Source: a virus
IMG/VR virus record: IMGVR_UViG_3300022074_000158
Location: 1 to 35,942 of that record
DNA: 35,942 bases
Reading direction: 5' to 3' (one strand)
Positions 3,135-35,615 of this stretch are shown piece after piece. The notes beneath the pieces were generated by a model, which was given only the letters and a program-made list of their open reading frames with translations, had not been told where the DNA came from and made no database searches. The translations under genes were made by a program, and so were the position numbers. Position 1 is the first letter of the stretch. Each line of letters begins with the position of its first letter.

Positions 3135-3731
3135 ATGGGATTTGATTTGTACGGACTTAATCCAAATTTTAAAAATAAAAAACCTTCCATTGATTGGGAC
3201 AAGAAACCAACAAAGGAAGAACAAGAAAAATTTTTTGCTGACTATAATAAATGGGAGAAAGAAAATCCAGGACATTATTTTAGAAATAATGTTTGGTGGT
3301 GGCGACCATTAGCAGACTTTGTTTTGTGGTTAGCTGATGAAGAGTTTTCAGAAGAAGAAAGAAAAAGATGGCACGACAACGGAGGCTTTAAAGTTAGTGA
3401 AAAAAAAGCTAACCTAATTGCTGACTTGTTAGAAATGGCTATTGAAAAAGGAATGGCAAATAAAGTGGAAGAAGAGAATAAAAGAAAAATGGCTATTGCT
3501 AGAGAACATAATAAAAAGGTTGAAGAGAAACACAAAGAATTAAAAAAAATAGTTGAAGAAAAAACTAATAAAAAAAATCTAGCTCCAGCAGAATTTCCAG
3601 AACCTTTTAAAAGCCAATGGGACGATATACAGAAAATGACAAACTACGATTCGCATTACCCTTTTAGTGTGGACAATGTAAAAGAGTTTATTATTTTTTG
3701 CAGAGCAAGTGGAGGTTTTGAAATTTGCTAG
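3135..3731 (+). CDS. Conserved MGFDLYG protein of unknown function, 198 residues
   Basis: The start MGFDLYGLNP and the later YFRNNVWWWRPLADFV are hallmarks of a conserved protein type found in phages and bacteria with no assigned activity. After the aromatic FRNNVWWWRPL block (about residues 48-60) comes a helical part with SEKKANLIADLLEMAIEKG, then a Lys/Glu-rich coiled coil (about 105-150) and a C-terminal segment including FIIFCRASGGFEIC. Members typically pair these two N-terminal motifs with a helix similar to VS...A..IA..L. The gene has its own promoter, the shared ACTAACGGAG leader and a terminator-like hairpin after its stop, so it is a self-contained transcription unit. Confidence 0.8.
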   Translation: MGFDLYGLNPNFKNKKPSIDWDKKPTKEEQEKFFADYNKWEKENPGHYFRNNVWWWRPLADFVLWLADEEFSEEERKRWHDNGGFKVSEKKANLIADLLEMAIEKGMANKVEEENKRKMAIAREHNKKVEEKHKELKKIVEEKTNKKNLAPAEFPEPFKSQWDDIQKMTNYDSHYPFSVDNVKEFIIFCRASGGFEIC

Positions 3732-3750
3732 AGATTCCATTTCTCTTTTT

Positions 3751-3795
3751 AGAGTGTGTGCTATATCTAGCACTCACTCTATTTATTTTATATTT
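3751..3795 (+). terminator. Hairpin terminator candidate after the MGFDLYG gene
   Basis: AGAGTGTGTGCT at 3751-3762 pairs with AGCACTCACTCT at 3769-3780 over 12 positions with one mismatch, around a 6-base loop (ATATCT). A T-rich stretch (ATTTATTTTATATTTT) follows. The T-run is interrupted by A, so termination may be partial. Confidence 0.6.
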
Positions 3796-3805
3796 TACAC
3801 ATTAG

Positions 3806-3961
3806 TTCCCGTTCCCGTTCCCGTTTCTGTCACAGTAATACTTTACGCTGTTGGTTTAGCAGCCGCCAGGATCGCACGGGAGGGAAACTCCCGTTTGGCA
3901 TTCCCGTTCCCGTTCTCGAAGGTGCTTGGGTAGGTGCATGCTGGCTTCAAAACTCCAGCCA
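3806..3961 (+). repeat. GC-rich island D, in a 357-base stretch without a gene
   Basis: Three CCCGTT units at 3808-3825 and two more at 3903-3914. A core CAGCCGCCAGGATCGCACGG starts at 3860. A perfect ACGGGAG-GGAAA-CTCCCGT hairpin lies at 3876-3894, and CTGGCT-10 bases-AGCCAG at 3940-3961. The rest of 3732-4088 holds the upstream terminator and the downstream promoter. The ORF across 3709-3933 has no ribosome site and mostly reads the hexamers as Val-Pro, so I do not call it. Confidence 0.7.
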
Positions 3962-4020
3962 GAAAAAAACTAACAAAATTTTTTGTTTCAAAAAAAAATG
4001 CAATTAATTAAAAATAATAC

Positions 4021-4082
4021 TTGATTATCTGTTATTTACTGATATATTAGTATATAAGTTTAATCATCAAACACTAACGGAG
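4021..4082 (+). promoter_or_regulatory. Putative extended -10 promoter plus ACTAACGGAG sequence
   Basis: TTGATT at 4021-4026 and TATATT at 4043-4048 are separated by 16 bases, with TG at 4040-4041 forming an extended -10 (TGnTATATT). The leader ends in ACTAACGGAG at 4073-4082, extended by GT, seven bases before the ATG at 4089. It serves the three-gene unit 4089-4927. Confidence 0.65.
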
Positions 4083-4088
4083 GTAAAT

Positions 4089-4424
4089 ATGAAAAAACTT
4101 AAATTAAAAAGTGAGCAACTAACAAAAGAAGAAATAATGATGAATTTTGTTATTGCTGATTCCAACTATAAGAAGTTTAAAAAAGAAAGAAATAAACTTC
4201 TACCATTTGTAAAAGAGATATTAGAAGATACAGACAACAACACTTTTACATTTAAACTTCTACCACATATAAAAGGTTTCATTCAAAAGGTTTCAGTATT
4301 TGCTGAAAGATTTGATACTACTACTTTTAGAAAAGAAAATCCTGCAATTTCAGAACAGTATATGGTAGAAAGAGAATCAACAACAATCATAACTGATAAT
4401 GCTAAAATCGAGGTGCAAAAATGA
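4089..4424 (+). CDS. Hypothetical protein, 111 residues
   Basis: A Lys-rich N-terminal region (MKKLKLKSEQLTKEEIMMNF) is followed by helical sequence and a C-terminal part with AERFDTTTFRKENPAISEQY and a short beta-like tail. The pattern FD...F...NP.. resembles the end of small phage proteins that bind or accompany DNA enzymes, but I do not recognise the family with confidence. It is the first gene of a three-gene unit and its stop overlaps the next start (ATGA). Its GGAGGT site is the strongest of the four ACTAACGGAG leaders. Confidence 0.65.
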   Translation: MKKLKLKSEQLTKEEIMMNFVIADSNYKKFKKERNKLLPFVKEILEDTDNNTFTFKLLPHIKGFIQKVSVFAERFDTTTFRKENPAISEQYMVERESTTIITDNAKIEVQK

Positions 4425-6540: not shown

Positions 6541-6654
6541 ATGATACAAAAAATCAAAAACATATTTAATAAAATTAAAAAAAGATTATTCGGTAAATTA
6601 TGTGAGTGTCTTCCTAAAAAGAAAAAAGGAAGAGGCAGACCTAAAAAGAGTTGA
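6541..6654 (+). CDS. AT-hook-like basic peptide, 37 residues
   Basis: A short ORF seven bases after terL, with GAGGA at 6532-6536 as ribosome site. The product is amphipathic and basic at the start (MIQKIKNIFNKIKKRLFGKL), has two Cys (CECLP), and ends KKKKGRGRPKKS. GRGRPKK is the core of an AT-hook, a motif that binds the minor groove of AT-rich DNA. I have seen similar tiny proteins near terminase genes in marine phages. It may help condense or handle packaged DNA, but this is inference. It overlaps the following TTG start by 4 bases. Confidence 0.65.
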   Translation: MIQKIKNIFNKIKKRLFGKLCECLPKKKKGRGRPKKS

Positions 6655-9600
6655 GTGTGGCTGAAGAAGATTCAGGTATGGGTTTTGGCACAGCTGCCTT
6701 AATAGGAGGTGGTATTGGTGCATTGGTGTTTCGTAGAAACATCGGTAAATTTGCCAAAGATTATTTCGATGACTACAAACGAGTCACGGATCCTGATGCT
6801 TTGTTAAAACAAAAAAAGAAAGCTGAAGCAGATGCAGACTTTCAAGAAGAGTATGTAAATAAATTTGGTGTTGACCCTGACGAAAGGGGCACCAATATTA
6901 TGACACAAAATAGAGACCTTGTTCCACAAGATAAAGTTGATGAGCTTGTGAACCCTGCACCTATGACACCAGGACAAGTAGCTCAACAAGAAGCAAAAAA
7001 TTTTATACAAAGAGATCAACAGATTTTAGCAGACATAAAAAGAGAAGTACAAAAGCCAGGTCAGTCGTTTACATTAGGAGGTCAATCATTTAACAATGAT
7101 TTGTATGGAGTTGGTTCTGTTTTGTATGATGCTGTTGCAAGAAAAGTACAAACTGCTAAACCTATGCCTGTATCTTTTTGGACAAAATTTTTTAAAGATA
7201 AGATACAAGTTGAGTTTACACCTTTTAACAGAAAAGTAGAAACAGTATCTAAAGATGAGATTGCTGATACAAATATTGCTAAGTTCGATAAGAAAGGTAA
7301 TTTAGTTGATGGTTACTTAAAGTATGTATCAGATATGAATATTAATAATAAGTTAGAAGATGAGATACGCATATCTCCTCTGACCATTTTAAATTTAATA
7401 AAAAAAGCTCCTGCAAATAATTTAAGAGTTATAGAATATGATTCAAGGTTTTATGCTGAAGATGCAACAGGTATGAATAATTTTGGTAAAGCCATAGTTG
7501 AGGCTCTTGAAAAAAGAGAGCCTACACTTAAAAAAACAAATCCTAATTTTGGTGATTATGCTAATGCTACTGCAACAGCTAATTCAGTATTAGGAAGCAC
7601 AAGAGTAACTTCTTTACTTAATTTGAAAAAGAAATTAGGACTTAGTACAGGAACTCTCGATACATTAAGAGGTCAAGGTTATAAAATGTCAACTGGCGCT
7701 GACTTGTTTAATAACCCTGGAGTTGGTGTAAGAGATTTAGCTTTTACTTTAAAAAAATTTAAAAAAGACGTAAACAATAATTTATTTAGTCCTGAAGGTG
7801 GAGTAGGACCAGATTTAACAACAAGCGAAAACTTTAAAGCGTTTTTTGATTTACCAGTATCATCTCTTAATTACAAAGGTAAATATAAATTAGATCCTAA
7901 TATGACAATAGGAGAGGCTATAGAAAAATATAACAAAGACTCTGTTAAGTTTAGAGATACTTTAAAAGAGATAGGAAAAACTAGCGGTGTAAATGAGGAA
8001 ACCTTAGCGATAAGAAAAGCTATTTTTGATATGACAAAATCTTATAAAGAGGTATCAAAATTAAAAAATAAATTACCTTTTACTATGTATCCAGATTATA
8101 TTCCTTATCGTTTGTACGGACCAGAAGATTATTTTGAGGCAGTCATTCATGTAGATCCTGCAACAATAAAAGGTGTAAAAAACTATGCTCCAAACTTTCA
8201 AGCAGCTCAAGGACAAGGTCATTATCATAATGATATTTTTGGTCAGCCTATTCAGGGACAAATATTACACTTGAGGGGTGGTATAAGAAAACTAGATAGT
8301 AATGCTAAAAAAGGTATTGGAGATAATGAAACTATTCTTACAGTAGATGAGATACAAGCAGACATAAATCAAAAAGTTCAGCAAGAAATAAAAAGAGAAA
8401 AAAGTAAAATGGCTAAAGATAGATTATATGCTGAACTTGATGCTTTAAGAAATGAAGAAGCTGTGCAAAGAGATTTTACAAAGTTTAAAGACGAGGGTGG
8501 TTTACAAAGATTTCAAACAGAAGAGAGAAGAAGACAAAGAAATAGAAATGCTGGTTTTGACGAAGTATTAACAGACATAGATAATATGAGTGAAGATGCA
8601 AAATTCTTAGCTTATAAAAAATTTAATTTAAGAAATTTAACTGACAAAGAATTTGGAGATTTGACATCCACAGAGTCAAGACTTTTTGGCAAACAGTTTT
8701 TATTTGATGATGATAAAGAACAAGCCATAAGAAAAAATATGTTTAACCTAGGTGATTTAAATTCTGATATGTATAAAGATAGATTACTTACTATAGCAGA
8801 TCAGATGCAAGAACTTACAGCTAAAGGTTCTGCTATGACTAGAGCTGATTTAGATAATTTAAAAAAATTAGAAATAAAATATGAGGACATTAGAGAACTA
8901 ATACCATCTGTAGATAGAAGAGATGCTAGTAAATATACCTATATGCCTTTTTATAAGAAAGAACAATGGGGTCCACTTGGTTTAAAGTATGCGATTAAGA
9001 AAGCAGCAAAAGATGGAGTAGATTGGGTGGGTGTAAATCCTTATGAGTTAGTGCATCATAGAGAGGGTCAAGTATTAGGTAATTTAGAATTTTATGGAAA
9101 CTACAGAGGAGGAGGAGACATATCTAAAAGAGTTAAAGGTTCTTTGTTACCTCGTCAAGTAGAGTATTTAGATAAGTTAGCAGAAAAAAAAGGGTTTAAA
9201 GATGCAGGAGGAGAATTTAAAAATAGTCCTGGTTATTATAAACTTTTAGCAGAAGCAGCAGAAAGACCAGTAAGAGCAAGAAAAGCTTTATCAGGTGAAT
9301 TAAATACTAGATCCGTTATAACTGAAAGAAGTGATCAAAGAAAAAAAGCCTCAGCTGAAGGAGCTACCCTACCAAACTTTTTAAAAAAATTTGCAGCTGA
9401 TTATGGCACCGAAGTTAAAACAGTTAGAGCTGCTAAATCAGATCCAGATAAACCTATCAAAATAATAAAACCAATAAAAGCAATTGACCCTGATACAGGA
9501 AAAGAGTTTAAGTATGATCAACATGTTGCTGCATTTACTAAAGATGAATATGATTCATTAATAGCAGAGTACGGATCTAAAGATAATGTTTTAAGTAAAC

Positions 9601-9794
9601 TTACTGGAGTAACAGGTCAATTAGGAGAAGCAGGAAGTGAATTTAGACCTAGAGTAGTAGAAAGAAGTCCTGGTAAATATTATTATGAAGATTATTATGA
9701 GATATATGCTTTAAAAGTAAAACCTGAATTTGGAGATGTACCTATAAAAGGATATTTTAAAGGTGGACTAGCACAAAACATATTTAAATGGTAA
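6651..9794 (+). CDS. Giant protein with an EIQAD / W..LGLK polyvalent-protein-type domain
   Basis: A 1047-residue protein with TTG as likely start (6651), overlapping the previous stop. Residues 10-27 are a Gly/Ala-rich hydrophobic segment (GFGTAALIGGGIGALVF) that could enter a membrane. Residues 490-580 hold PEDYFEAVIH, HYHNDIF, HLRGG and LTVDEIQADINQK. Residues 766-800 hold PFYKKEQWGPLGLKYAIKKA and DGVDWVGVNPYE. This order matches a domain I know from large polyvalent proteins of phages and plasmids (ENYREL, H.R, EEIQSDW, then W..L.LKR...A...G.D). Its activity is not known to me. The C-terminus ends in GYFKGGLAQNIFKW. Position between terL and portal suggests a virion or ejected protein, but that is inference. 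Confidence 0.7.
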   Translation: MSVAEEDSGMGFGTAALIGGGIGALVFRRNIGKFAKDYFDDYKRVTDPDALLKQKKKAEADADFQEEYVNKFGVDPDERGTNIMTQNRDLVPQDKVDELVNPAPMTPGQVAQQEAKNFIQRDQQILADIKREVQKPGQSFTLGGQSFNNDLYGVGSVLYDAVARKVQTAKPMPVSFWTKFFKDKIQVEFTPFNRKVETVSKDEIADTNIAKFDKKGNLVDGYLKYVSDMNINNKLEDEIRISPLTILNLIKKAPANNLRVIEYDSRFYAEDATGMNNFGKAIVEALEKREPTLKKTNPNFGDYANATATANSVLGSTRVTSLLNLKKKLGLSTGTLDTLRGQGYKMSTGADLFNNPGVGVRDLAFTLKKFKKDVNNNLFSPEGGVGPDLTTSENFKAFFDLPVSSLNYKGKYKLDPNMTIGEAIEKYNKDSVKFRDTLKEIGKTSGVNEETLAIRKAIFDMTKSYKEVSKLKNKLPFTMYPDYIPYRLYGPEDYFEAVIHVDPATIKGVKNYAPNFQAAQGQGHYHNDIFGQPIQGQILHLRGGIRKLDSNAKKGIGDNETILTVDEIQADINQKVQQEIKREKSKMAKDRLYAELDALRNEEAVQRDFTKFKDEGGLQRFQTEERRRQRNRNAGFDEVLTDIDNMSEDAKFLAYKKFNLRNLTDKEFGDLTSTESRLFGKQFLFDDDKEQAIRKNMFNLGDLNSDMYKDRLLTIADQMQELTAKGSAMTRADLDNLKKLEIKYEDIRELIPSVDRRDASKYTYMPFYKKEQWGPLGLKYAIKKAAKDGVDWVGVNPYELVHHREGQVLGNLEFYGNYRGGGDISKRVKGSLLPRQVEYLDKLAEKKGFKDAGGEFKNSPGYYKLLAEAAERPVRARKALSGELNTRSVITERSDQRKKASAEGATLPNFLKKFAADYGTEVKTVRAAKSDPDKPIKIIKPIKAIDPDTGKEFKYDQHVAAFTKDEYDSLIAEYGSKDNVLSKLTGVTGQLGEAGSEFRPRVVERSPGKYYYEDYYEIYALKVKPEFGDVPIKGYFKGGLAQNIFKW

Positions 9795-13074: not shown

Positions 13075-13283
13075 TGTATGATTTAGATACTTTAACTTTA
13101 ATAAAAAACCAAATAAATAAAAAATTACACGAAATTAAAGAACATCTTATTTATAGTGTAGACACAACTCAAGAACTTTACTATGCTAGAGGTAAGATCA
13201 ATGCTCTTGAAACATTGCTACAGGACTTAAAAGACCTGCAACGAAAGGAAGACGATATATATGATAATGACGAACAAACCTAA
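13071..13283 (+). CDS. Small conserved coiled-coil phage protein, 70 residues
   Basis: A helical protein with LIKNQINKKLHEIKEHLIYS, then a YYARGKINALETLLQDLKDL segment and an acidic tail. The layout (two helices around a Y..Y.RG.I.AL motif) is shared by many small phage proteins next to head genes, with no function known to me. Two ATG codons in tandem (13071 and 13074) are possible starts. The first overlaps the holin stop, which favours coupling. Its 3' end overlaps the co-chaperonin gene by 23 bases. Confidence 0.75.
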   Translation: MMYDLDTLTLIKNQINKKLHEIKEHLIYSVDTTQELYYARGKINALETLLQDLKDLQRKEDDIYDNDEQT

Positions 13284-13692
13284 ATTAATATTACCAAAAA
13301 GTAAAGAAACAAAAAAACCAAACATACCAATGACGAGCAAAGAGCGAGAAGCTTATTACAAAATGCTACCTGATCCAGTAGGATACAGAATTTTAATAAG
13401 GCCGCATGTTCCTAGTAATAAAACTGAAGGTGGAGTTTACCTGTCTGATAAAACACAAGAAACTATGGAAGTAACTACAGTAGTAGGTTTAGTTATTAAA
13501 ATGGGTCCATTGTGTTATCAGGATACAGATAAATTTCCAAGTGGTCCTTGGTGTAAAAGAGGTCAGTTTGTTATTTATGGTAGATATGCTGGAGCTAGGT
13601 TTAAAACAAAATATGGTGAGCATAGGATTTTAAACGATGACGAAATTATAGGAACTATTAAAAACCCCGAGGATGTCCTCGCACTATTTTAA
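13261..13692 (+). CDS. GroES-like co-chaperonin
   Basis: A 143-residue protein with the GroES fold signature: GYRILIRPHV (41-50) as the first strand, a mobile loop with NKTEGGVYLSDKT (53-65) in which GGVYL stands for the GroEL-binding GG(I/V).L, VVGLVIKMGP (74-83), and a late GQFVIYGRYAGARF (101-114) and HRILNDDEIIGTI (121-133). It has about 35 extra N-terminal residues compared with GroES. Phage co-chaperonins such as T4 gp31 recruit host GroEL to fold the capsid protein, and the position before scaffold and capsid fits that role. No GroEL gene is in the window. AGGAAG at 13246-13251 supports ATG 13261. Confidence 0.85.
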   Translation: MIMTNKPKLILPKSKETKKPNIPMTSKEREAYYKMLPDPVGYRILIRPHVPSNKTEGGVYLSDKTQETMEVTTVVGLVIKMGPLCYQDTDKFPSGPWCKRGQFVIYGRYAGARFKTKYGEHRILNDDEIIGTIKNPEDVLALF

Positions 13693-17409: not shown

Positions 17410-17718
17410 ATGAACTCAGATATAGGAGCAAAAACTTTAACTAGCACTGGAACCATTCAGTCTGGTAGAACACGTTTGCTGTCTATTTATTATGTAGGTC
17501 ATTCTTCAGCTGGAAGTTTAACTTTTAAAGATGGTGGTGGTAGTGGTACACAAAAGCTTGTGATTGCTACACCTGCTGGAAGTGCAGCTGATCAATATCA
17601 AGTTGATATGCCTTTGGATGGTATACTATTTAAAACGGATATGCACTTGACTATTAGTAACGTAACCTCTGTTACAGTATTTGTAACACCGATTACAGCT
17701 GATACAGATAATGGATAA
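17410..17718 (+). CDS. Small beta-sandwich virion protein, 102 residues
   Basis: The pattern TGTIQSGRTRLLSIYYVGH, then SLTFKDGGGSG and a late SNVTSVTVFVTPI, fits a type of small beta protein common in marine phage structural regions (TG.I..G..R...IY......G...L.DG..G.......P......G..F.....V....V..VTVF). A head or tail decoration role is likely. The 116-residue product at 31626 has a related layout. The next gene overlaps the end by 8 bases. Confidence 0.7.
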   Translation: MNSDIGAKTLTSTGTIQSGRTRLLSIYYVGHSSAGSLTFKDGGGSGTQKLVIATPAGSAADQYQVDMPLDGILFKTDMHLTISNVTSVTVFVTPITADTDNG

Positions 17719-18019
17719 TTACACAGCAGACCTTATTGGTTTAAAAAGGGGAGGCATGCCTCCCCGAAATAAGCAAAACTTTAGACCTACTAAATCTGGT
17801 GCAGGTATGACCAAAGCAGGTGTTGCTGCTTATAGAAGAAAAAACCCTGGATCTAAACTACAAACTGCTGTTACAGGTAAAGTAAAACCAGGAAGTAAAG
17901 CTGCAAAAAGACGTAAATCATTTTGCGCTAGAAGTGCAGGACAGATGAAAAAATTTCCTAAAGCTGCAAAAGATCCTAATTCAAGATTGCGTCAAGCAAG
18001 ACGTAGATGGAAGTGTTAA
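17711..18019 (+). CDS. Cationic protein of the KAAKRRKSFCAR type
   Basis: A 102-residue protein, strongly basic, with SGAGMTKAGVAAYRRKNPGS, then the hallmark SKAAKRRKSFCARSAGQMKK (62-81) and an Arg-rich end (RLRQARRRWKC). Cys residues are at 72 and 102. I have seen the KAAKRRKSFCAR block in marine phages and some large DNA viruses, where it has no known function. With its charge a nucleic-acid-binding or virion-internal role is plausible, which is inference. It begins a run of basic proteins that continues to 21232, interrupted by the endolysin. Its stop is followed directly by the endolysin ATG. Confidence 0.7.
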   Translation: MDNYTADLIGLKRGGMPPRNKQNFRPTKSGAGMTKAGVAAYRRKNPGSKLQTAVTGKVKPGSKAAKRRKSFCARSAGQMKKFPKAAKDPNSRLRQARRRWKC

Positions 18020-18648: not shown

Positions 18649-19383
18649 ATGACAAAATTATGTCCAAGAGGTAAAGCAGCTGCTAAAAGAAAATTTAAGG
18701 TTTATCCCAGTGCATATGCTAATGCGTATGCTTCAAAAATATGTGCAGGTAAGGCAAAAGATGACAAAGGTGTAAGAAGAAAAGATTTTAAAGGACCTAA
18801 ACCATCTGGTGGAGGTGGCACAGGTGCTGCTGCAAGAAGAATTAGAAAAGCAAAAAAAGGTGGATCAATGAAAGTATATAAAGCAGGCAAAGGAATGCTA
18901 TTACCTATATTTGGTTTAGCAGGTATGGCTAAATACATGTCTATGAACAGAAAGAAAAGTGGTACAGTTGCACCAAACAAAGGTGCAGTTGATCCTGTTA
19001 CAGGTCAAGGTACAAATCAAACTAACACTGGTAATGTAGAAGAGTTTGGTAAACAAGCAGTAAATACGGTGTTAAAAAATAAAATGGGTGCTAGAAAAGG
19101 TGGTATGAAAGTACAAAAAGCAGGTTTTGGTCTTATGATGTTAATGAACCAGATGAAAAAAGAAGGTAAAAAGAAAGGAAGACAACAAGCTGAAGAAGGT
19201 ATGATGCAAAATCAACAATACCAAAACTTTTTAGCTTCACAAAATAAACCTAATACAACTAATATGAGTATGGGTGGTATGGTACCTACAGCAACAGGAT
19301 CTTATATCAAACAAGATATTGACGGAGATGAGGGTTTTACTAATCCATCTGCTCAAGAGTATTATAAGGATTTATTGGATTAA
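18649..19383 (+). CDS. Cationic protein with CPRGKAAAKRKFKVYPSAYA block and GG-MKV repeats
   Basis: A 244-residue protein. The N-terminal LCPRGKAAAKRKFKVYPSAY with Cys 5, and NAYASKICAGKA with Cys 32, is a short cationic block I know from marine phages and some large DNA viruses, without assigned activity. A repeat follows: KKGGSMKVYKAGKGML, then hydrophobic IFGLAGMAKYM, and later RKGGMKVQKAGFGLMMLM. The C-terminal part has MSMGGMVP and an acidic end. The protein may be virion-internal or DNA-binding, which is inference. It has a strong AAGGAGGT ribosome site. Its stop overlaps the next ATG (TAATG). Confidence 0.7.
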   Translation: MTKLCPRGKAAAKRKFKVYPSAYANAYASKICAGKAKDDKGVRRKDFKGPKPSGGGGTGAAARRIRKAKKGGSMKVYKAGKGMLLPIFGLAGMAKYMSMNRKKSGTVAPNKGAVDPVTGQGTNQTNTGNVEEFGKQAVNTVLKNKMGARKGGMKVQKAGFGLMMLMNQMKKEGKKKGRQQAEEGMMQNQQYQNFLASQNKPNTTNMSMGGMVPTATGSYIKQDIDGDEGFTNPSAQEYYKDLLD

Positions 19384-19664
19384 TGTCTGGTTTAGACAAA
19401 TGGTTCAAGCAAAAATGGGTTGATATTGGAAGTAAAAGAGCTGATGGTTCATTTGCACCATGTGGTAGAAGTAAACAAAAAGCAGATGCAAAAAGAAAGT
19501 ACCCTAAATGTGTTCCTTTAGCAAAAGCTAGAAGAATGTCCGAGGGTCAAAGAAAAAGTGCAATTAAAAGAAAAAGAGCTAAAGCTCAAGGAGTTGGTGG
19601 TAAACCAACGAACGTGAGCACGTTTACAAAGAAATACTATGGTGGTATGATAGACATAACTTAG
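19383..19664 (+). CDS. Cationic protein of the LDKWFKQKWVDI type
   Basis: A 93-residue basic protein. It opens with SGLDKWFKQKWVDIGSK, followed by SFAPCGRSK (Cys 27) and YPKCVPLAKARRMSEGQRKS (Cys 43), then AIKRKRAKAQG. This layout (LDKWF...WVDI....G....CGR......YP.C.P......S...) recurs in marine phages and large DNA viruses, with no known function. It ends with YYGGMIDIT, again containing a GG-hydrophobic motif. It is coupled to the gene before by TAATG. Together with its neighbours it forms the run of cationic proteins. Confidence 0.7.
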   Translation: MSGLDKWFKQKWVDIGSKRADGSFAPCGRSKQKADAKRKYPKCVPLAKARRMSEGQRKSAIKRKRAKAQGVGGKPTNVSTFTKKYYGGMIDIT

Positions 19665-30895: not shown

Positions 30896-31219
30896 ATGGA
30901 CATTAAAAACATAGTAAGTATTGATCATGAAAATATATGGAAAAGTGATCATACGTCAAATCCTTATGCAATTGTTTTAAACGCAAAAAAAATATGGAAA
31001 TTTACTAAACATGAATGGCCTGATCAATATAAATTTTACTCAGATATGATTAAACAAAATGCAGAAGATTTTAGATGGGGTTTACACAAACAAAAGTCTT
31101 TTAAATTGTTAACCATAAAAGAATACTGTTATTTTATGGCACCACCTGATATAATATACAGAGCTATAAGGAAAGAAGATGGTAAGAAAAACAAAAGATC
31201 CATTAAAAGGAACAGGTAA
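30896..31219 (+). CDS. Hypothetical protein, 107 residues
   Basis: A mixed protein rich in aromatic residues (KIWKFTKHEWPDQYKFYSDM and RWGLHKQKSFKLLTIKEYCY), with a basic Lys/Arg end (EDGKKNKRSIKRNR). I do not recognise it. It starts three bases after the tail nozzle stop and its last 41 bases overlap the next gene. The basic C-terminus is partly a by-product of that overlap, because the same bases encode the conserved start of the next protein. Confidence 0.5.
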   Translation: MDIKNIVSIDHENIWKSDHTSNPYAIVLNAKKIWKFTKHEWPDQYKFYSDMIKQNAEDFRWGLHKQKSFKLLTIKEYCYFMAPPDIIYRAIRKEDGKKNKRSIKRNR

Positions 31220-31472
31220 AAAACCAAAGGGTAGTGGTCGTAGATTGTATACAGACGAAAACCCTAAGGATACAGTACGTATTAAATTTGCGACACCAGC
31301 TGATGCAAGAGCAACTGTTGCAAAAGTAAAAAAGATTTCAAAACCTTATGCTAGAAAAATACAAATATTGACTGTTATGGAACAACGTGCGAAAGTTATG
31401 GGTAAAACGGAAGTAGTAAGAATAGCAAAAGCTGGTAAAGTAGCATTAAAAAAAAGGAAACAAATTGGCTAA
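31179..31472 (+). CDS. Small conserved basic phage protein (TGKKPKGSGRRLYTDENP type)
   Basis: A 97-residue basic protein with TGKKPKGSGRRLYTDENPKD, then a TVRIKFATPADARATVAKVK stretch and YARKIQILTVMEQRAKVMGK. This block order (KGTGKKPKGS.RRLYTDENPKDTV..KF.T..D...T.......KPYARK.QI....EQRAKV) is well conserved across marine phages, yet I know no function. Its size, charge and place beside tail genes are constant. It overlaps the previous gene by 41 bases. Confidence 0.75.
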   Translation: MVRKTKDPLKGTGKKPKGSGRRLYTDENPKDTVRIKFATPADARATVAKVKKISKPYARKIQILTVMEQRAKVMGKTEVVRIAKAGKVALKKRKQIG

Positions 31473-31629
31473 AATTAATACATTTATTCCAGAACCAAAA
31501 GAAGAATATAATATTGAAAACCAAAGATTAATTAATTTAGCCTTAACTCAAATTATACAAAAATTAAATTTTAGTTATCAACAAGAAATTAAAAATGAAC
31601 AACAAGCTTTTGAATATTTTTTATCATGA
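31465..31629 (+). CDS. Small conserved phage protein with TTG start, 54 residues
   Basis: Missed by a length cutoff. TTG at 31465 follows AAAGGAAA and the ORF ends at TGA 31629. The product (AKINTFIPEPKEEYNIENQR, then LINLALTQIIQKLNFSYQQE and a KNEQQAFEYFLS end) matches a small marine phage type with the pattern P.PK.EY...NQR.I..AL..I...LN...QQ...NEQ...WFL or FFLS. Its function is unknown. It overlaps the genes on both sides (8 and 4 bases), which supports coupled translation. Confidence 0.7.
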   Translation: MAKINTFIPEPKEEYNIENQRLINLALTQIIQKLNFSYQQEIKNEQQAFEYFLS

Positions 31630-31976
31630 CAATACAATATAAAAACCAAGGTTTTAAACAAACTGATACAAGTAAAACTACAGTATTTACATGTCCTACT
31701 AATGGAACAGTTATAGTTAAAAGTATTTATTGCGCTAATAATGATGCGTCATCAGCTATTTTAGTTAATATGAATTTTGTTGATTCATCTGATTCTAGCA
31801 CGGAGTATGAATTTTTTAGAGATGACGTGCCAGCTAAATCACAAGTAAACGCTACACCTCAAGGTTTAAATTTAGAGGCTGGTGATGCTATAACTGTACA
31901 AGCTGCTACAGGAAGTAGTAAAATACAAGGCTTAATAAGTTATGCTTTAATAGATCGTTCTCAAGAGAATGGATAA
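31626..31976 (+). CDS. Small beta-sandwich virion-type protein, 116 residues
   Basis: Beta-rich sequence: YKNQGFKQTDTSKTTVFTCP, then a VIVKSIYCANNDASSAILVN stretch, a DDVPAKSQVNATPQGLNLEA segment and AGDAITVQAATGSSKIQGLI. The pattern of a small protein with T..P..T..IV..IY.AN........V......G..Y........P..S........L..GD.I.V........G..SY.LI matches small virion decoration proteins in marine phages. It follows the tail nozzle region and precedes the oxygenase gene, which it overlaps by 8 bases. Confidence 0.7.
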   Translation: MTIQYKNQGFKQTDTSKTTVFTCPTNGTVIVKSIYCANNDASSAILVNMNFVDSSDSSTEYEFFRDDVPAKSQVNATPQGLNLEAGDAITVQAATGSSKIQGLISYALIDRSQENG

Positions 31977-32538
31977 AATCAGTTCTGCTATTTTTAAAGT
32001 AGATCAAGCTTTAGATAAAAAAGTTTGTAAAAACCTGTGTGATCATATAGAGGTAAGTCCTAGTATTAAAGCTACGATGTTAAAAAATGATGGTGATTAC
32101 GTAGATACTAAACATAGAAATGTTTATACTGTTCCTTTAAACCTTAATAACGAACATGATGTTCTATATCAAAAATTAATATTTAAGACCTGTAGTAAAG
32201 CTATTACAAATTATCAAAAGATATTTACAAGTTTACATCAAGAGTTAAAACTAGAATCAATAAATTTATTAAAATATAAAACAGGTAATTTTTATAAAAA
32301 ACATACTGACTCTTTCCATCAAGAAAATAGACAACTTTCTTTTATAATTAATTTAAACGAAGATTATAAAGGTGGAGAATTGATTTTTTATTATCCTAAC
32401 GATAGGCAGTTTGCATACAGTAAAGTAGAATTAAAAACAGGAGATTTAGTTATGTTTCCTAGTAATTTTATGTACCCTCATTCTGTACAACCTATTTTAT
32501 CTGGCACTAGATACAGCATAGTTTGTTGGTTTAGTTAA
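31969..32538 (+). CDS. 2-oxoglutarate/Fe(II) oxygenase, prolyl-hydroxylase-like
   Basis: A 189-residue protein with a complete 2OG-Fe(II) signature. Iron ligands are H112 and D114 in KKHTDSF and H171 in YPHSVQP. R181 in GTRYSIVCWF binds 2-oxoglutarate. GGELIFYYP (135-143) and TGDLVMFPS (157-165) are the expected strands of the double-stranded helix. Such phage enzymes resemble prolyl-4-hydroxylases. They would hydroxylate a protein side chain or another substrate, releasing CO2 and succinate. It overlaps the preceding virion-type gene by 8 bases and opens an accessory cassette with SET and glycosyltransferase genes. Confidence 0.85.
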   Translation: MDKISSAIFKVDQALDKKVCKNLCDHIEVSPSIKATMLKNDGDYVDTKHRNVYTVPLNLNNEHDVLYQKLIFKTCSKAITNYQKIFTSLHQELKLESINLLKYKTGNFYKKHTDSFHQENRQLSFIINLNEDYKGGELIFYYPNDRQFAYSKVELKTGDLVMFPSNFMYPHSVQPILSGTRYSIVCWFS

Positions 32539-32541
32539 TAC

Positions 32542-32570
32542 TTGATTTTTTCTAGTATTTATAGGATATT
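32542..32570 (+). promoter_or_regulatory. Weak promoter candidate for the SET-glycosyltransferase genes
   Basis: TTGATT at 32542-32547 and GATATT at 32565-32570 with a 17-base spacer lie in the 38-base gap after the oxygenase gene, just before a gene without a clear Shine-Dalgarno sequence. Each element has only four bases of consensus, so this is tentative. Confidence 0.3.
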
Positions 32571-32576
32571 GTTTTT

Positions 32577-32777
32577 ATGAAAACAATACAATGCACCTCA
32601 CAAGAAACTTACAGAAATAAAAAGACTAACTTAAGATATGCCTCTAAAGAAGATGCTCAACATGACGTAGACAATCCAAATACAGATACCAAACAAGAGG
32701 ATATAGTGTGCGATGTAAATATTATAGTGCCAAAAGAAGCTTTGTCTATGATAAGTAAAACCAAAGATGAAAATTAA
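32577..32777 (+). CDS. Small conserved acidic protein, 66 residues
   Basis: An acidic protein, MKTIQCTSQETYRNKKTNLR, then a YASKEDAQHDVDNPNTDTKQ stretch and EDIVCDVNIIVPKEALSM. I recall a similar small marine phage protein with YASK.DA..DV.NP.T.TK.EDI..DV.I.VPK..L. It has no known role. Lying between the oxygenase and SET genes, with an 11-base overlap into the SET gene, it probably belongs to the same unit. It may be a substrate or partner, which is inference. Confidence 0.65.
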   Translation: MKTIQCTSQETYRNKKTNLRYASKEDAQHDVDNPNTDTKQEDIVCDVNIIVPKEALSMISKTKDEN

Positions 32778-33084
32778 ATACGACAGGTTTTATTATAATC
32801 CTTTACCAGAAGAATTAATGATAGGTGTAAGTAACACTCATGGACATGGTGTCTTTGCAAAATTTGATTTGCCTAGAAAGTATGATTTAGGTATGAGTCA
32901 TATAAAAATACCAATAATACACGGATATGTTAGAACTCCGATGGGAGGTTTTTTAAACCATAGTGACGAACCAAACTGTCGTTTGTTTATTGATTTAGAC
33001 TGGGATGATTATGTTGTATATAAAGTTATAACGATTAAAAAAATAAAAAAAGGTAAAGAGTTGTTATTGGAGTATGGCTCGTGA
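32767..33084 (+). CDS. SET-domain protein (lysine methyltransferase-like)
   Basis: A 105-residue protein with the core of a SET domain. GVSNTHGHGVFAKFDLP (20-36) is the G.G.FA start, VRTPMGGFLNHSDEPNC (55-71) includes the NHS..PNC motif that binds S-adenosylmethionine, and GKELLLEYGS ends with the Y103 of the catalytic E..Y.Y-type end. SET proteins transfer methyl groups to lysine. The length is close to the minimal SET fold, without the pre-SET and post-SET Cys clusters of eukaryotic forms. The stop overlaps the GTG start of the next gene. Confidence 0.85.
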   Translation: MKIKYDRFYYNPLPEELMIGVSNTHGHGVFAKFDLPRKYDLGMSHIKIPIIHGYVRTPMGGFLNHSDEPNCRLFIDLDWDDYVVYKVITIKKIKKGKELLLEYGS

Positions 33085-34010
33085 TTCCTTCAGGTGGAAC
33101 TGAAATACAACATCGTTTTCTATCACACTATGTTGATGATAATTTATTAGACAATTTTCAAATATGCACATCAATACCAGGTAAAGTAGAATTAAGCAAA
33201 GATAAAATAAATATACTTTGGCAAAAAAATAGTCACAATCAACCTAATATATATCCGTGGTTTGAAGATAAAAGTAATCACGATAAATTTGATTGGTATG
33301 TTTTTAACAGTCATTGGAATTATGAAAAGTATAGATATAGATTTGATATACCTACTAACAAATGTCATGTGATAAAAAATGGTGTAAACAATTTTCCTAA
33401 AATTACACCTTTTAAACATGGTGATATGGTTCGTATGCTTTTTCACGTAACTCCGTGGAGAGGTCTTAATGTTTTACTTGGAGCTATGAGTTTATTAAAA
33501 GACTGTAACGTGCATGTAGATGTGTTTAGTAGTTGTAAAATATACGGAGAGGAATTTGAAAAAGCAAACGACAGTCAATATGAACCATTGTATGAACAAG
33601 CAAGAAAATTAGAAAATGTTACTTACATAGGATACAAAGAACATTCGTTTATACAAAAATATATTTATCGCTATCATATGTTTGCATACCCTAGTATATG
33701 GGAGGAGACAAGTTGTAATGCAGCTCTTGAATCAATGGCTGCTGGATTATTTTGTATAGTTACAAACTTTGGTGCTTTGTATGAAACTTGTTCTGAGTTT
33801 CCTGTATACGTGACCTATGAAAAAGATACTAAGAGACTTGCTAGTAAGTTTGCATCTGCGATACGTCAAGCAGTAAACACGATACACGAGCCAGAGATAT
33901 TTGAACATCTACAAATGCAACAAAACTTTGTAAAAAAATTTTATAGTTGGGATAAGAAAAAGATAGAATGGACAAATTTTTTACAAGGTGCATTGAATGA
34001 AAGAAATTAA
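33081..34010 (+). CDS. Glycosyltransferase, GT-B fold (GT4-like)
   Basis: A 309-residue protein, GTG start at 33081 overlapping the SET stop. SGGTEIQHRFL at the start suits the N-terminal loop of GT4 enzymes. HVTPWRGLNVLLGAMSLL (122-139) marks the start of the C-terminal Rossmann domain. YPSIWEETSCNAALESMAAG (203-222) contains the E-x7-E pair (E209, E217) that binds the sugar nucleotide. It would transfer a sugar from an activated donor to a protein, DNA or glycan. Its N-terminal half is short for GT4, which suggests a compact enzyme. Next to another glycosyltransferase it points to a two-sugar addition. Confidence 0.85.
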   Translation: MIPSGGTEIQHRFLSHYVDDNLLDNFQICTSIPGKVELSKDKINILWQKNSHNQPNIYPWFEDKSNHDKFDWYVFNSHWNYEKYRYRFDIPTNKCHVIKNGVNNFPKITPFKHGDMVRMLFHVTPWRGLNVLLGAMSLLKDCNVHVDVFSSCKIYGEEFEKANDSQYEPLYEQARKLENVTYIGYKEHSFIQKYIYRYHMFAYPSIWEETSCNAALESMAAGLFCIVTNFGALYETCSEFPVYVTYEKDTKRLASKFASAIRQAVNTIHEPEIFEHLQMQQNFVKKFYSWDKKKIEWTNFLQGALNERN

Positions 34011-34779
34011 ATTATTTGTAGCAACACCAGTCCATAGTGATGTATCCATACATTACATGCAATCTATGTTGAAGTTTCAAGCTGAGTGTTTATCTAAAAG
34101 TATTTACATTACTATAGACATGATGAAAAGTTCTTTGGTAACACAAGGTAGAAACACATTAGTGTCTCACTTTTTATCTGACGATTGTACGCATCTTTTG
34201 TTTATAGACAGTGACATATTATTTTATCCTAATTCTATTTTTAAAATGATAGATAAAGATGTTGAGGTATGTAGTATACCTTACCCCATGAAATTAATTA
34301 ATTGGGATAAGGTATTTGAAAAAAATTACGATATATCTAGTATGACAAAATTACAAAAACATACAAGTGGTAATAAATTTCCTGTTAAGATAAAAGATAA
34401 TGAAGATAATGTTTCATTTACTAATGAGATGATTGAGTTAAATTATGCTCCAACTGGCTGTCTTTTGTTAAAAAGAGAAGTGTTTGACAAACTTATAAAA
34501 GCTTACCCTAACAAAATTATACATCAGGAAAGTATGGTAGATGGAAAGATGACAATAAAACCTAACTTGTATAACTTTTTTGACACTCATTATGACGAGA
34601 AACATAAAAGATATTATGGAGAAGACTTCGCTTTTTCTAAATTATGGCGTGATATTGGTGGTAAATGTTATGCTTTGATAACAGAATATATAACTCATGT
34701 AGGAGAATATCAGTATACAGGAAGACTAATAGATGAAATGATACCTGTAGGTATTGATAAGCTCGATAAAAAGAGTTAA
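33997..34779 (+). CDS. Glycosyltransferase, GT-A-like
   Basis: A 260-residue protein. TQGRNTLVSHFLSDDCTHLL, then FIDSDILFYPNSI, contains a DSD (71-73) as the DXD motif that binds the metal and sugar nucleotide. Later APTGCLLLKREVFDKL (151-166), YGEDFAFSKLWRDIGGKCYA (207-226) and H234 fit a GT2-like enzyme in phages that modify their own or host molecules. It overlaps the GT-B gene by 14 bases, so both are made together. The acceptor cannot be read from sequence. Protein hydroxyls created by the oxygenase, virion proteins or host surface glycans are all possible. Confidence 0.75.
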   Translation: MKEIKLFVATPVHSDVSIHYMQSMLKFQAECLSKSIYITIDMMKSSLVTQGRNTLVSHFLSDDCTHLLFIDSDILFYPNSIFKMIDKDVEVCSIPYPMKLINWDKVFEKNYDISSMTKLQKHTSGNKFPVKIKDNEDNVSFTNEMIELNYAPTGCLLLKREVFDKLIKAYPNKIIHQESMVDGKMTIKPNLYNFFDTHYDEKHKRYYGEDFAFSKLWRDIGGKCYALITEYITHVGEYQYTGRLIDEMIPVGIDKLDKKS

Positions 34780-34808: not shown

Positions 34809-35615
34809 ATGGCATTTCCAGTTTTAGCAATGGCAATAGGAGCAGGTATAGGAGGCTTATACACAAAAGCATCAGGTGGCTCTAATCGAGATATGATAAA
34901 GAATATGTTTTTAGGTGCAGCACTTGGAGCAGGTGCAGGAATGGCAGCACCTGGAATGTTGGGTGCAGCTGGAGGTGCAGGCACATCTAGTTATACAGCT
35001 GGTCAAGGTTTAGCTAGCACGTTAGGTTTGTCAGCAGGTAAAGCTAAACTTGCAGGAGCAGCCGCAGTTGCAGCACCACTTATGACACCAAGTGCACAAA
35101 AACCAGAGGGTTTTAAAATGCCATTTAGTGATCAAATGTATGCAGATGAGTATGCTAAAGGGCAAGAACAAGTAAAAGGTTTAGGAGATAGGTTTAATTA
35201 TGACACAGTAACAGGAGGAGATAGACAGTTTCAAAATTTATATAATTACCAACAACCTAATCAAGTTTATGCTTTTTCACAAGGTGGTATAGTTGATGCT
35301 TTACCTAAATATAGAGAGGGTGGAGATGTACAATATTTACCAAGTAAACTTGATCACGATGAAAAAGATGTAAGTAATTATGTTAGAGCAGCAGGATATA
35401 TAGAAGACGCAACAGATATGGCAGATAAAGATAAAGATACTATGCTTGCGCAATTAGCGGATGGAGAATTTGTAAGTAGAGCTGATGCAGTGTTGGGTGC
35501 TGGTATTATGAGCGGAGCTAATCCAAAAGATTTTAAAGATATGAGAAAAAAAGGAGCTAAATATTTTTATAACCAACAAGATCAGTTAAAAAGAATATAT
35601 GACATGGTAAGCTAA
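34809..35615 (+). CDS. Gly-rich protein with C-terminal DGEFV domain
   Basis: A 268-residue protein. The first 90 residues are Ala/Gly-rich and hydrophobic (PVLAMAIGAGIGGLYTKASG, then MFLGAALGAGAGMAAPGML), likely membrane-active or fibrous. A linker includes FSQGGIVDALPKYREGGD, with the GG-hydrophobic motif seen elsewhere in this window. The C-terminal QLADGEFVSRADAVLGAG, then KKGAKYFYNQQDQLKRIYDM, matches an LADGEFV...AV.GAG.......GA...Y.....L domain common at the end of marine phage tail-associated proteins. AAAGGAGT upstream of the ATG. Possible roles are ejection protein or virion-internal protein, which is inference. Confidence 0.7.
   Translation: MAFPVLAMAIGAGIGGLYTKASGGSNRDMIKNMFLGAALGAGAGMAAPGMLGAAGGAGTSSYTAGQGLASTLGLSAGKAKLAGAAAVAAPLMTPSAQKPEGFKMPFSDQMYADEYAKGQEQVKGLGDRFNYDTVTGGDRQFQNLYNYQQPNQVYAFSQGGIVDALPKYREGGDVQYLPSKLDHDEKDVSNYVRAAGYIEDATDMADKDKDTMLAQLADGEFVSRADAVLGAGIMSGANPKDFKDMRKKGAKYFYNQQDQLKRIYDMVS

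Follow-up and report, generated by a model that had tools for sequence, protein, structure and literature searches.

Gene content of the locus

The viral record analysed here, a stretch of 35,942 bases called the window below, covers part of the genome of an HTVC023P-type pelagiphage. It includes genes for terminase, portal, capsid and tail, and its late region has about 67% DNA identity to Pelagibacter phages HTVC023P and HTVC027P. An island surrounded by structural genes includes a five-gene stretch that encodes a 2OG-Fe(II) oxygenase (OXY), a 66-aa protein (C0), a minimal SET-domain protein (SET) and two glycosyltransferases (GTs), one of type GT-B and one of type GT-A. The genes of the island and its borders are as follows.

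31179..31472, + strand: p97, a basic, Lys-rich 97-aa protein (21% Lys, net +22), candidate SET substrate in some phages
31626..31976, + strand: p116, a conserved S/T-rich 116-aa protein, presumed virion protein and upstream border of the variable slot (phrog_1276, 1e-5)
31969..32538, + strand: OXY, a 2OG-Fe(II) oxygenase of the prolyl-hydroxylase type, in the accessory slot (PF13640, 5.4e-20)
32577..32777, + strand: C0, a conserved small 66-aa protein belonging to the chassis, not the slot (123 members in 125 slots)
32767..33084, + strand: SET, a minimal SET-domain protein (accessory), predicted protein-lysine methyltransferase (PF00856, 2.9e-8; phrog_28741, 5e-23)
33081..34010, + strand: GT-B glycosyltransferase (core), GTG start (PF00534, 5e-12; phrog_2170, 4e-24)
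33997..34779, + strand: GT-A glycosyltransferase (core) with a DxD motif (phrog_1574, 7e-33; AlphaFold pLDDT 87)
34809..35615, + strand: open reading frame for a 268-aa protein, ejection- or internal-virion-like by sequence appearance, downstream border

The four enzyme genes singled out in a preliminary description of this DNA are real, each being intact at the coordinates above and encoding the expected catalytic residues. That description had missed C0 (32577-32777, between OXY and SET). The overlapping order it reported holds for SET and GT-B (4 bases) and for GT-B and GT-A (14 bases) but not for OXY, which does not overlap SET; OXY overlaps the upstream p116 gene by 8 bases. Nor does the cassette sit at the end of the tail genes: late-type genes continue 3' of it, from 34809 on, and HTVC023P and HTVC027P show the same arrangement, so the cassette lies inside the late block. 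The 268-aa protein encoded there has no Pfam or PHROG match and is the positional counterpart of HTVC023P gp79. All four enzyme genes are under purifying selection (pN/pS 0.10-0.30 between the window and its near relative L092), and no enzyme contains a membrane segment, defined as a 19-residue stretch with mean hydropathy above 1.5.

Catalytic motifs and predicted folds

OXY belongs to the 2OG-Fe(II) oxygenase superfamily, having a PF13640 domain with the HxD...H...R signature (HxD at 112/114, H171 and R181, invariant in 45 relatives) and a PHD2/P4H fold. The solved folds nearest to its AlphaFold model (pLDDT 93.7) are P. putida P4H bound to EF-Tu, and PHD2; the modelled fold fits a protein hydroxylase and does not indicate a substrate. 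PHD2-like oxygenases in marine phages have been noted previously (PMC12774648). SET scores above the PF00856 cut-off and shows the NHxxPN-type motif (NHS at 64-66) and the C-terminal tyrosine (Y103), with N64, H65 and Y103 invariant in 12 relatives.

The GT-B enzyme has the Glycos_transf_1 domain that defines group 1, and is 56% identical to HTVC023P gp77 and 53% identical to HTVC027P gp80. The GT-A enzyme combines a GT-A fold (TMq about 0.45 for the model against GT-A enzymes) with a DxD motif, D71/D73, that is invariant in 48 relatives; its match to Anp1 falls below the Pfam cut-off. Searched by sequence against the PDB, neither GT found a match. With the GT-A model as query, the top PDB neighbour is STIV A197; further hits are the collagen hydroxylysine glycosyltransferases LH3/ColGalT1, R699 of mimivirus and the enzyme that glycosylates the PBCV-1 capsid, at TM-scores of about 0.3-0.46 (below 0.5 on the query) and with nucleotidyltransferases interleaved and ranking equally, so that these modelled neighbours give only a weak hint of function.

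A fixed glycosyltransferase pair beside a variable slot

Homologous viral contigs were retrieved with the GT-B, GT-A, SET and oxygenase proteins as queries. Across 128 distinct GT-B genes, GT-A lies immediately 3' of GT-B in 117 of 120 testable loci, and it follows directly in all 103 loci of the sample retrieved with GT queries only. The pair is the core of the island. Upstream of it p116 is found in 125 of the 128 distinct loci, and the arrangement p116-C0-GTB-GTA forms a fixed chassis in nearly all. The phage 023Pt_psg01 retains p54, p116 and C0 without the GT pair, and is a natural empty site for it. C0 had been considered as a partner specific to the GTs and was rejected because 023Pt_psg01 encodes it without them. 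The p116 protein is one candidate for the sole GT substrate, although its gene also occurs in loci that have no GTs.

Immediately 5' of the pair, between p116 and GT-B, there is a slot whose content varies. Among genes of 140 aa or longer in the GT-query sample, dioxygenases account for 34 of 39 in the slot and for 131 of 811 in the remainder of the same loci, a comparison to be read with caution because the dioxygenase profiles were built partly from slot genes, which favours recognition of slot members, and because related loci are not independent. The slot dioxygenases fall into 8 clusters (Pfam matches include 2OG_Oxy_3, 2OG_Oxy_5 and JmjC_2), and on the GT-B tree their presence changes at least 13 times. 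Other cargo comprises a CmcI-like O-methyltransferase, a NodU-type carbamoyltransferase and SET. The complete order OXY-SET-GTB-GTA recurs in 21 distinct loci; SET is found in 21 GT-B loci, each time with an oxygenase nearby, and all of these fall within one 31-row clade of the GT-B tree that also includes loci without SET or without both accessory genes. Neither an oxygenase nor SET stands beside the GT pair in 71 of the 90 GT-query loci. The proposal of a modification cassette, for which co-occurrence of the set in relatives had been named as a check, is supported: the four genes do recur together, and dioxygenases are found preferentially beside the GT pair. The slot is the new element; the isolates HTVC023P and HTVC027P already carry the GT pair and oxygenases.

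No support for hydroxylation as an obligatory partner of glycosylation

It had further been suggested that the genes form a single pathway, in which Lys or Pro of a phage fibre would be hydroxylated and two sugars added, as in collagen. In the form considered here, the two GTs would build a disaccharide on the hydroxyl made by the oxygenase, for which mimivirus L230/R699 offers a second parallel. Such a pathway would agree with an OXY fold nearest to protein prolyl hydroxylases, with LH3/ColGalT1 and mimivirus R699 among the best PDB matches of the GT-A model, and with the recurrence of several dioxygenase families beside the pair; the structural part of this agreement is tempered by the low TM-scores and equally ranked nucleotidyltransferases described above. 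Four contigs with the GT pair (G006, G008, G009 and G011), gave no hit to PF13640, PF13759, PF13661 or PF08007 although their 54-58 kb approximate the genome size typical of the group; judged by these four families, the GTs appear not to require a hydroxylase. Conversely, 023Pt_psg01 has oxygenases and no GT pair, and oxygenases not adjoining GTs are common in this kind of phage. The window holds no collagen-like Gly-X-Y tract beyond chance (two chance four-triplet runs only), which leaves the collagen analogy without its substrate. Taken together, the oxygenase-free GT-pair contigs, the GT-free oxygenase phages and the lack of collagen-like repeats leave an obligatory order of hydroxylation before glycosylation unsupported, and we consider the single pathway unlikely.

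Possible targets in DNA and on the host surface

More distant homologues bear on what the GTs might modify. The T4-like phages phiM12, Cr30 and OC encode both GTs at non-adjacent positions, and PF13640, PF13759, PF13661 and PF08007 are all absent from them. In Cr30, GT-B has its homologue inside a heptose operon and GT-A has one among replication genes, between recombination genes and clamp-loader genes, a position comparable to that of agt in T4. These positions fit modification of a surface sugar or of DNA and count against a virion protein as target.

If the pair acted on phage DNA, it would glycosylate hypermodified bases, with the oxygenase making the acceptor hydroxyl. The site of the Cr30 GT-A homologue is compatible with this, as are the thymidine-hypermodification genes of HTVC023P-type phages (PMC9599517). 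The same study places a putative DNA glucosyltransferase of these phages elsewhere, near the DNA polymerase. The cassette occupies the late structural region. OXY has no Pfam match to TET/JBP at E<=1, and the GTs match no DNA-glycosyltransferase family known to Pfam, the T4-type alpha-GT and beta-GT families included. T4-type glucosylation also involves hydroxymethyl-base synthesis, and about 20 kb of the genome lie outside the window. A DNA target is, on this evidence, quite improbable.

The heptose-sugar operon of Cr30 would instead suit a pair that alters a host surface glycan and so excludes superinfecting phages. Gtr seroconversion clusters are built differently: here neither GT has a membrane segment, and no flippase-like gene lies between 31969 and 34779. 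Together with the late-region position and a lytic phage group, this makes a surface target about as improbable.

SET and its basic neighbour

SET recurs with OXY and the GTs in the 21 loci given above. Viral contigs contain many relatives of SET (at least 561 matches), and most of these have no GTs nearby. For this reason SET was rejected as a member of a fixed four-gene system. In five further loci without GTs it overlaps an oxygenase gene. A literature search on phage SET enzymes returned nothing relevant.

Gene neighbourhoods raise the possibility that SET works independently of the GTs, with p97 or other packaged basic proteins of its kind as methylation substrates, which would be compatible with the other readings. 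In the clade of the window, p97 lies upstream in 20 of 20 SET-positive loci with enough sequence, versus 8 of 76 SET-negative loci. In other phages, 10 loci without GTs have SET directly adjacent to p97, on one side or the other, and in L177/L178 the two are 111 bp apart; in the few independent pairs available the two genes co-vary in the same direction and never in the opposite one. Against this, only about 3 independent pairs are supported, too few for significance (as also for SET with OXY), in most of the other SET loci p97 is not found within 5 kb, and enrichment of basic neighbours beside SET overall gives p=0.15. The SET phages P-SSM7, P-RSM6, Kolga and AG-345-P14 have no p97 in the whole record. 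With several SET phages lacking p97 and so few independent pairs, p97 is a candidate substrate and not an established one; a separate role for SET of this kind is rather unlikely.

Relation to described systems

To the preliminary description, no phage system with this combination was known. The GT pair and the oxygenases are known from isolates and from a comparative study. HTVC023P gp77/gp78 and HTVC027P gp80/gp81 are the same GT-B/GT-A pair, in the same order and the same late position as in the window, and p116 and C0 are placed alike. Unlike the window, these isolates have no SET, no p97 and no slot oxygenase, their oxygenases lying about 3-8 kb upstream near tail genes. Three glycosyltransferases and eight non-orthologous 2OG-Fe(II) oxygenases have been described from 80 uncultured HTVC023P-type genomes (PMC9599517). 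The text searched does not name a SET domain, and its section on these genes deals with oxygenases that lie next to ferrochelatases and does not describe a slot beside the GT pair.

Outside this group, GTs of mycobacteriophages (Che8 and others) have been linked to sugars on virion proteins (Freeman et al. 2023, cited in PMC11256854). There the glycan was found on the capsid protein; in the window the GTs have oxygenase and SET partners. In mimivirus, L230/R699 unite a collagen lysyl hydroxylase with glucosyltransferases on one protein target (PMC9546862). The window resembles this system in pairing a viral hydroxylase with a GT-A enzyme whose model retrieves R699 from the PDB; it differs in having no collagen substrate, a hydroxylase of the PHD2/P4H type, and GTs that also occur without a hydroxylase. 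SET is, like PBCV-1 vSET (1n3j), a minimal viral SET domain, with a weak sequence match (E=0.27), but vSET belongs to a eukaryotic virus and acts on histone H3, whereas SET belongs to a phage, where there is no histone.

A proposed late island for virion modification

The reading we prefer, and hold to be about evenly balanced between right and wrong, is a late two-GT module that glycosylates a virion protein, with an exchangeable slot for tailoring enzymes beside it. Intact genes, catalytic motifs, the conserved GT pair, the slot and its enrichment in dioxygenases are observed directly; a virion protein as target is inferred from gene position, the lack of membrane segments and the lack of DNA-modifying families, and late expression and the order of the steps are inferred as well. 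Expressed late, the two soluble GTs of the overlapping gene pair would attach a short glycan to one of the phage's structural proteins, most probably the product of a nearby gene, for example p116, a tail protein or the internal-type protein encoded downstream. (The GT genes are not named in the main text on the HTVC027P transcriptome, PMC12753301.) The slot upstream of the pair would be a cargo site at which related phages exchange tailoring enzymes, most commonly an Fe(II)/2OG dioxygenase that may hydroxylate the same protein or its glycan. Less often the cargo would be a carbamoyltransferase, an enzyme that O-methylates a sugar, or a lysine methyltransferase of the SET type. In the present phage the slot contains a prolyl-hydroxylase-like oxygenase and SET. 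As a speculation, variation of the cargo may help particles escape recognition by host or surface.

Apart from the Cr30 homologues, two observations run counter to this reading: the presence of DNA-hypermodification genes in HTVC023P-type phages as well (PMC9599517), and the large share of GT-query loci (71 of 90) with neither accessory enzyme beside the pair.

The finding of several oxygenase families repeatedly beside a fixed GT pair gives a concrete, testable role to some of the many 2OG oxygenases that such phages carry, and because the cultured isolates HTVC023P and HTVC027P carry the pair, that role can be tested now. A bolder, collagen-like version, in which exchangeable hydroxylases create the attachment site, the two GTs build the sugar, and SET, carbamoyl- and methyltransferases diversify the product, is distinctly unlikely; if it were true, the virions of related marine phages would wear different chemical coats.

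Glycosyltransferase homologues and slot genes

Three T4-like phages that infect alphaproteobacteria, Cr30 (NC_025422.1), phiM12 (NC_027204.1) and OC (MT028491.1), carry homologues of both members of the glycosyltransferase pair (the overlapping GT-B and GT-A genes) at non-adjacent positions. One of the two Cr30 homologues is part of a heptose operon, and the other is surrounded by replication genes. At seven loci on fetched viral contigs (L047, L052-L054 and L056-L058) the pair is followed in tandem by a second GT-A copy, and the Pelagibacter phage isolate HTVC027P carries an additional GT-A-like gene (3493-4185) away from its pair. The variable slot adjoining the pair holds a NodU/CmcH-type carbamoyltransferase at two loci:

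L120 7461-8960, carbamoyltransferase
L129 6504-8006, carbamoyltransferase

SET genes of other phages, and genes of the window

At the phage loci L290, L298, L304, L306 and L309, a SET gene overlaps the start of a 2OG oxygenase gene, with no glycosyltransferase pair nearby. In the window, genes of note are:

6651-9794, 1047-aa protein, flanked by terminase and portal genes; no PHROG match
13261-13692, GroES-like co-chaperonin (phrog_3188)
17711-18019, small basic Lys-rich protein, DUF6321 type
19383-19664, small basic Lys-rich protein, second type
31179-31472 (+), small basic Lys-rich protein p97

Contiguous homologues of the three basic Lys-rich proteins adjoin the SET gene at L177 and L178.
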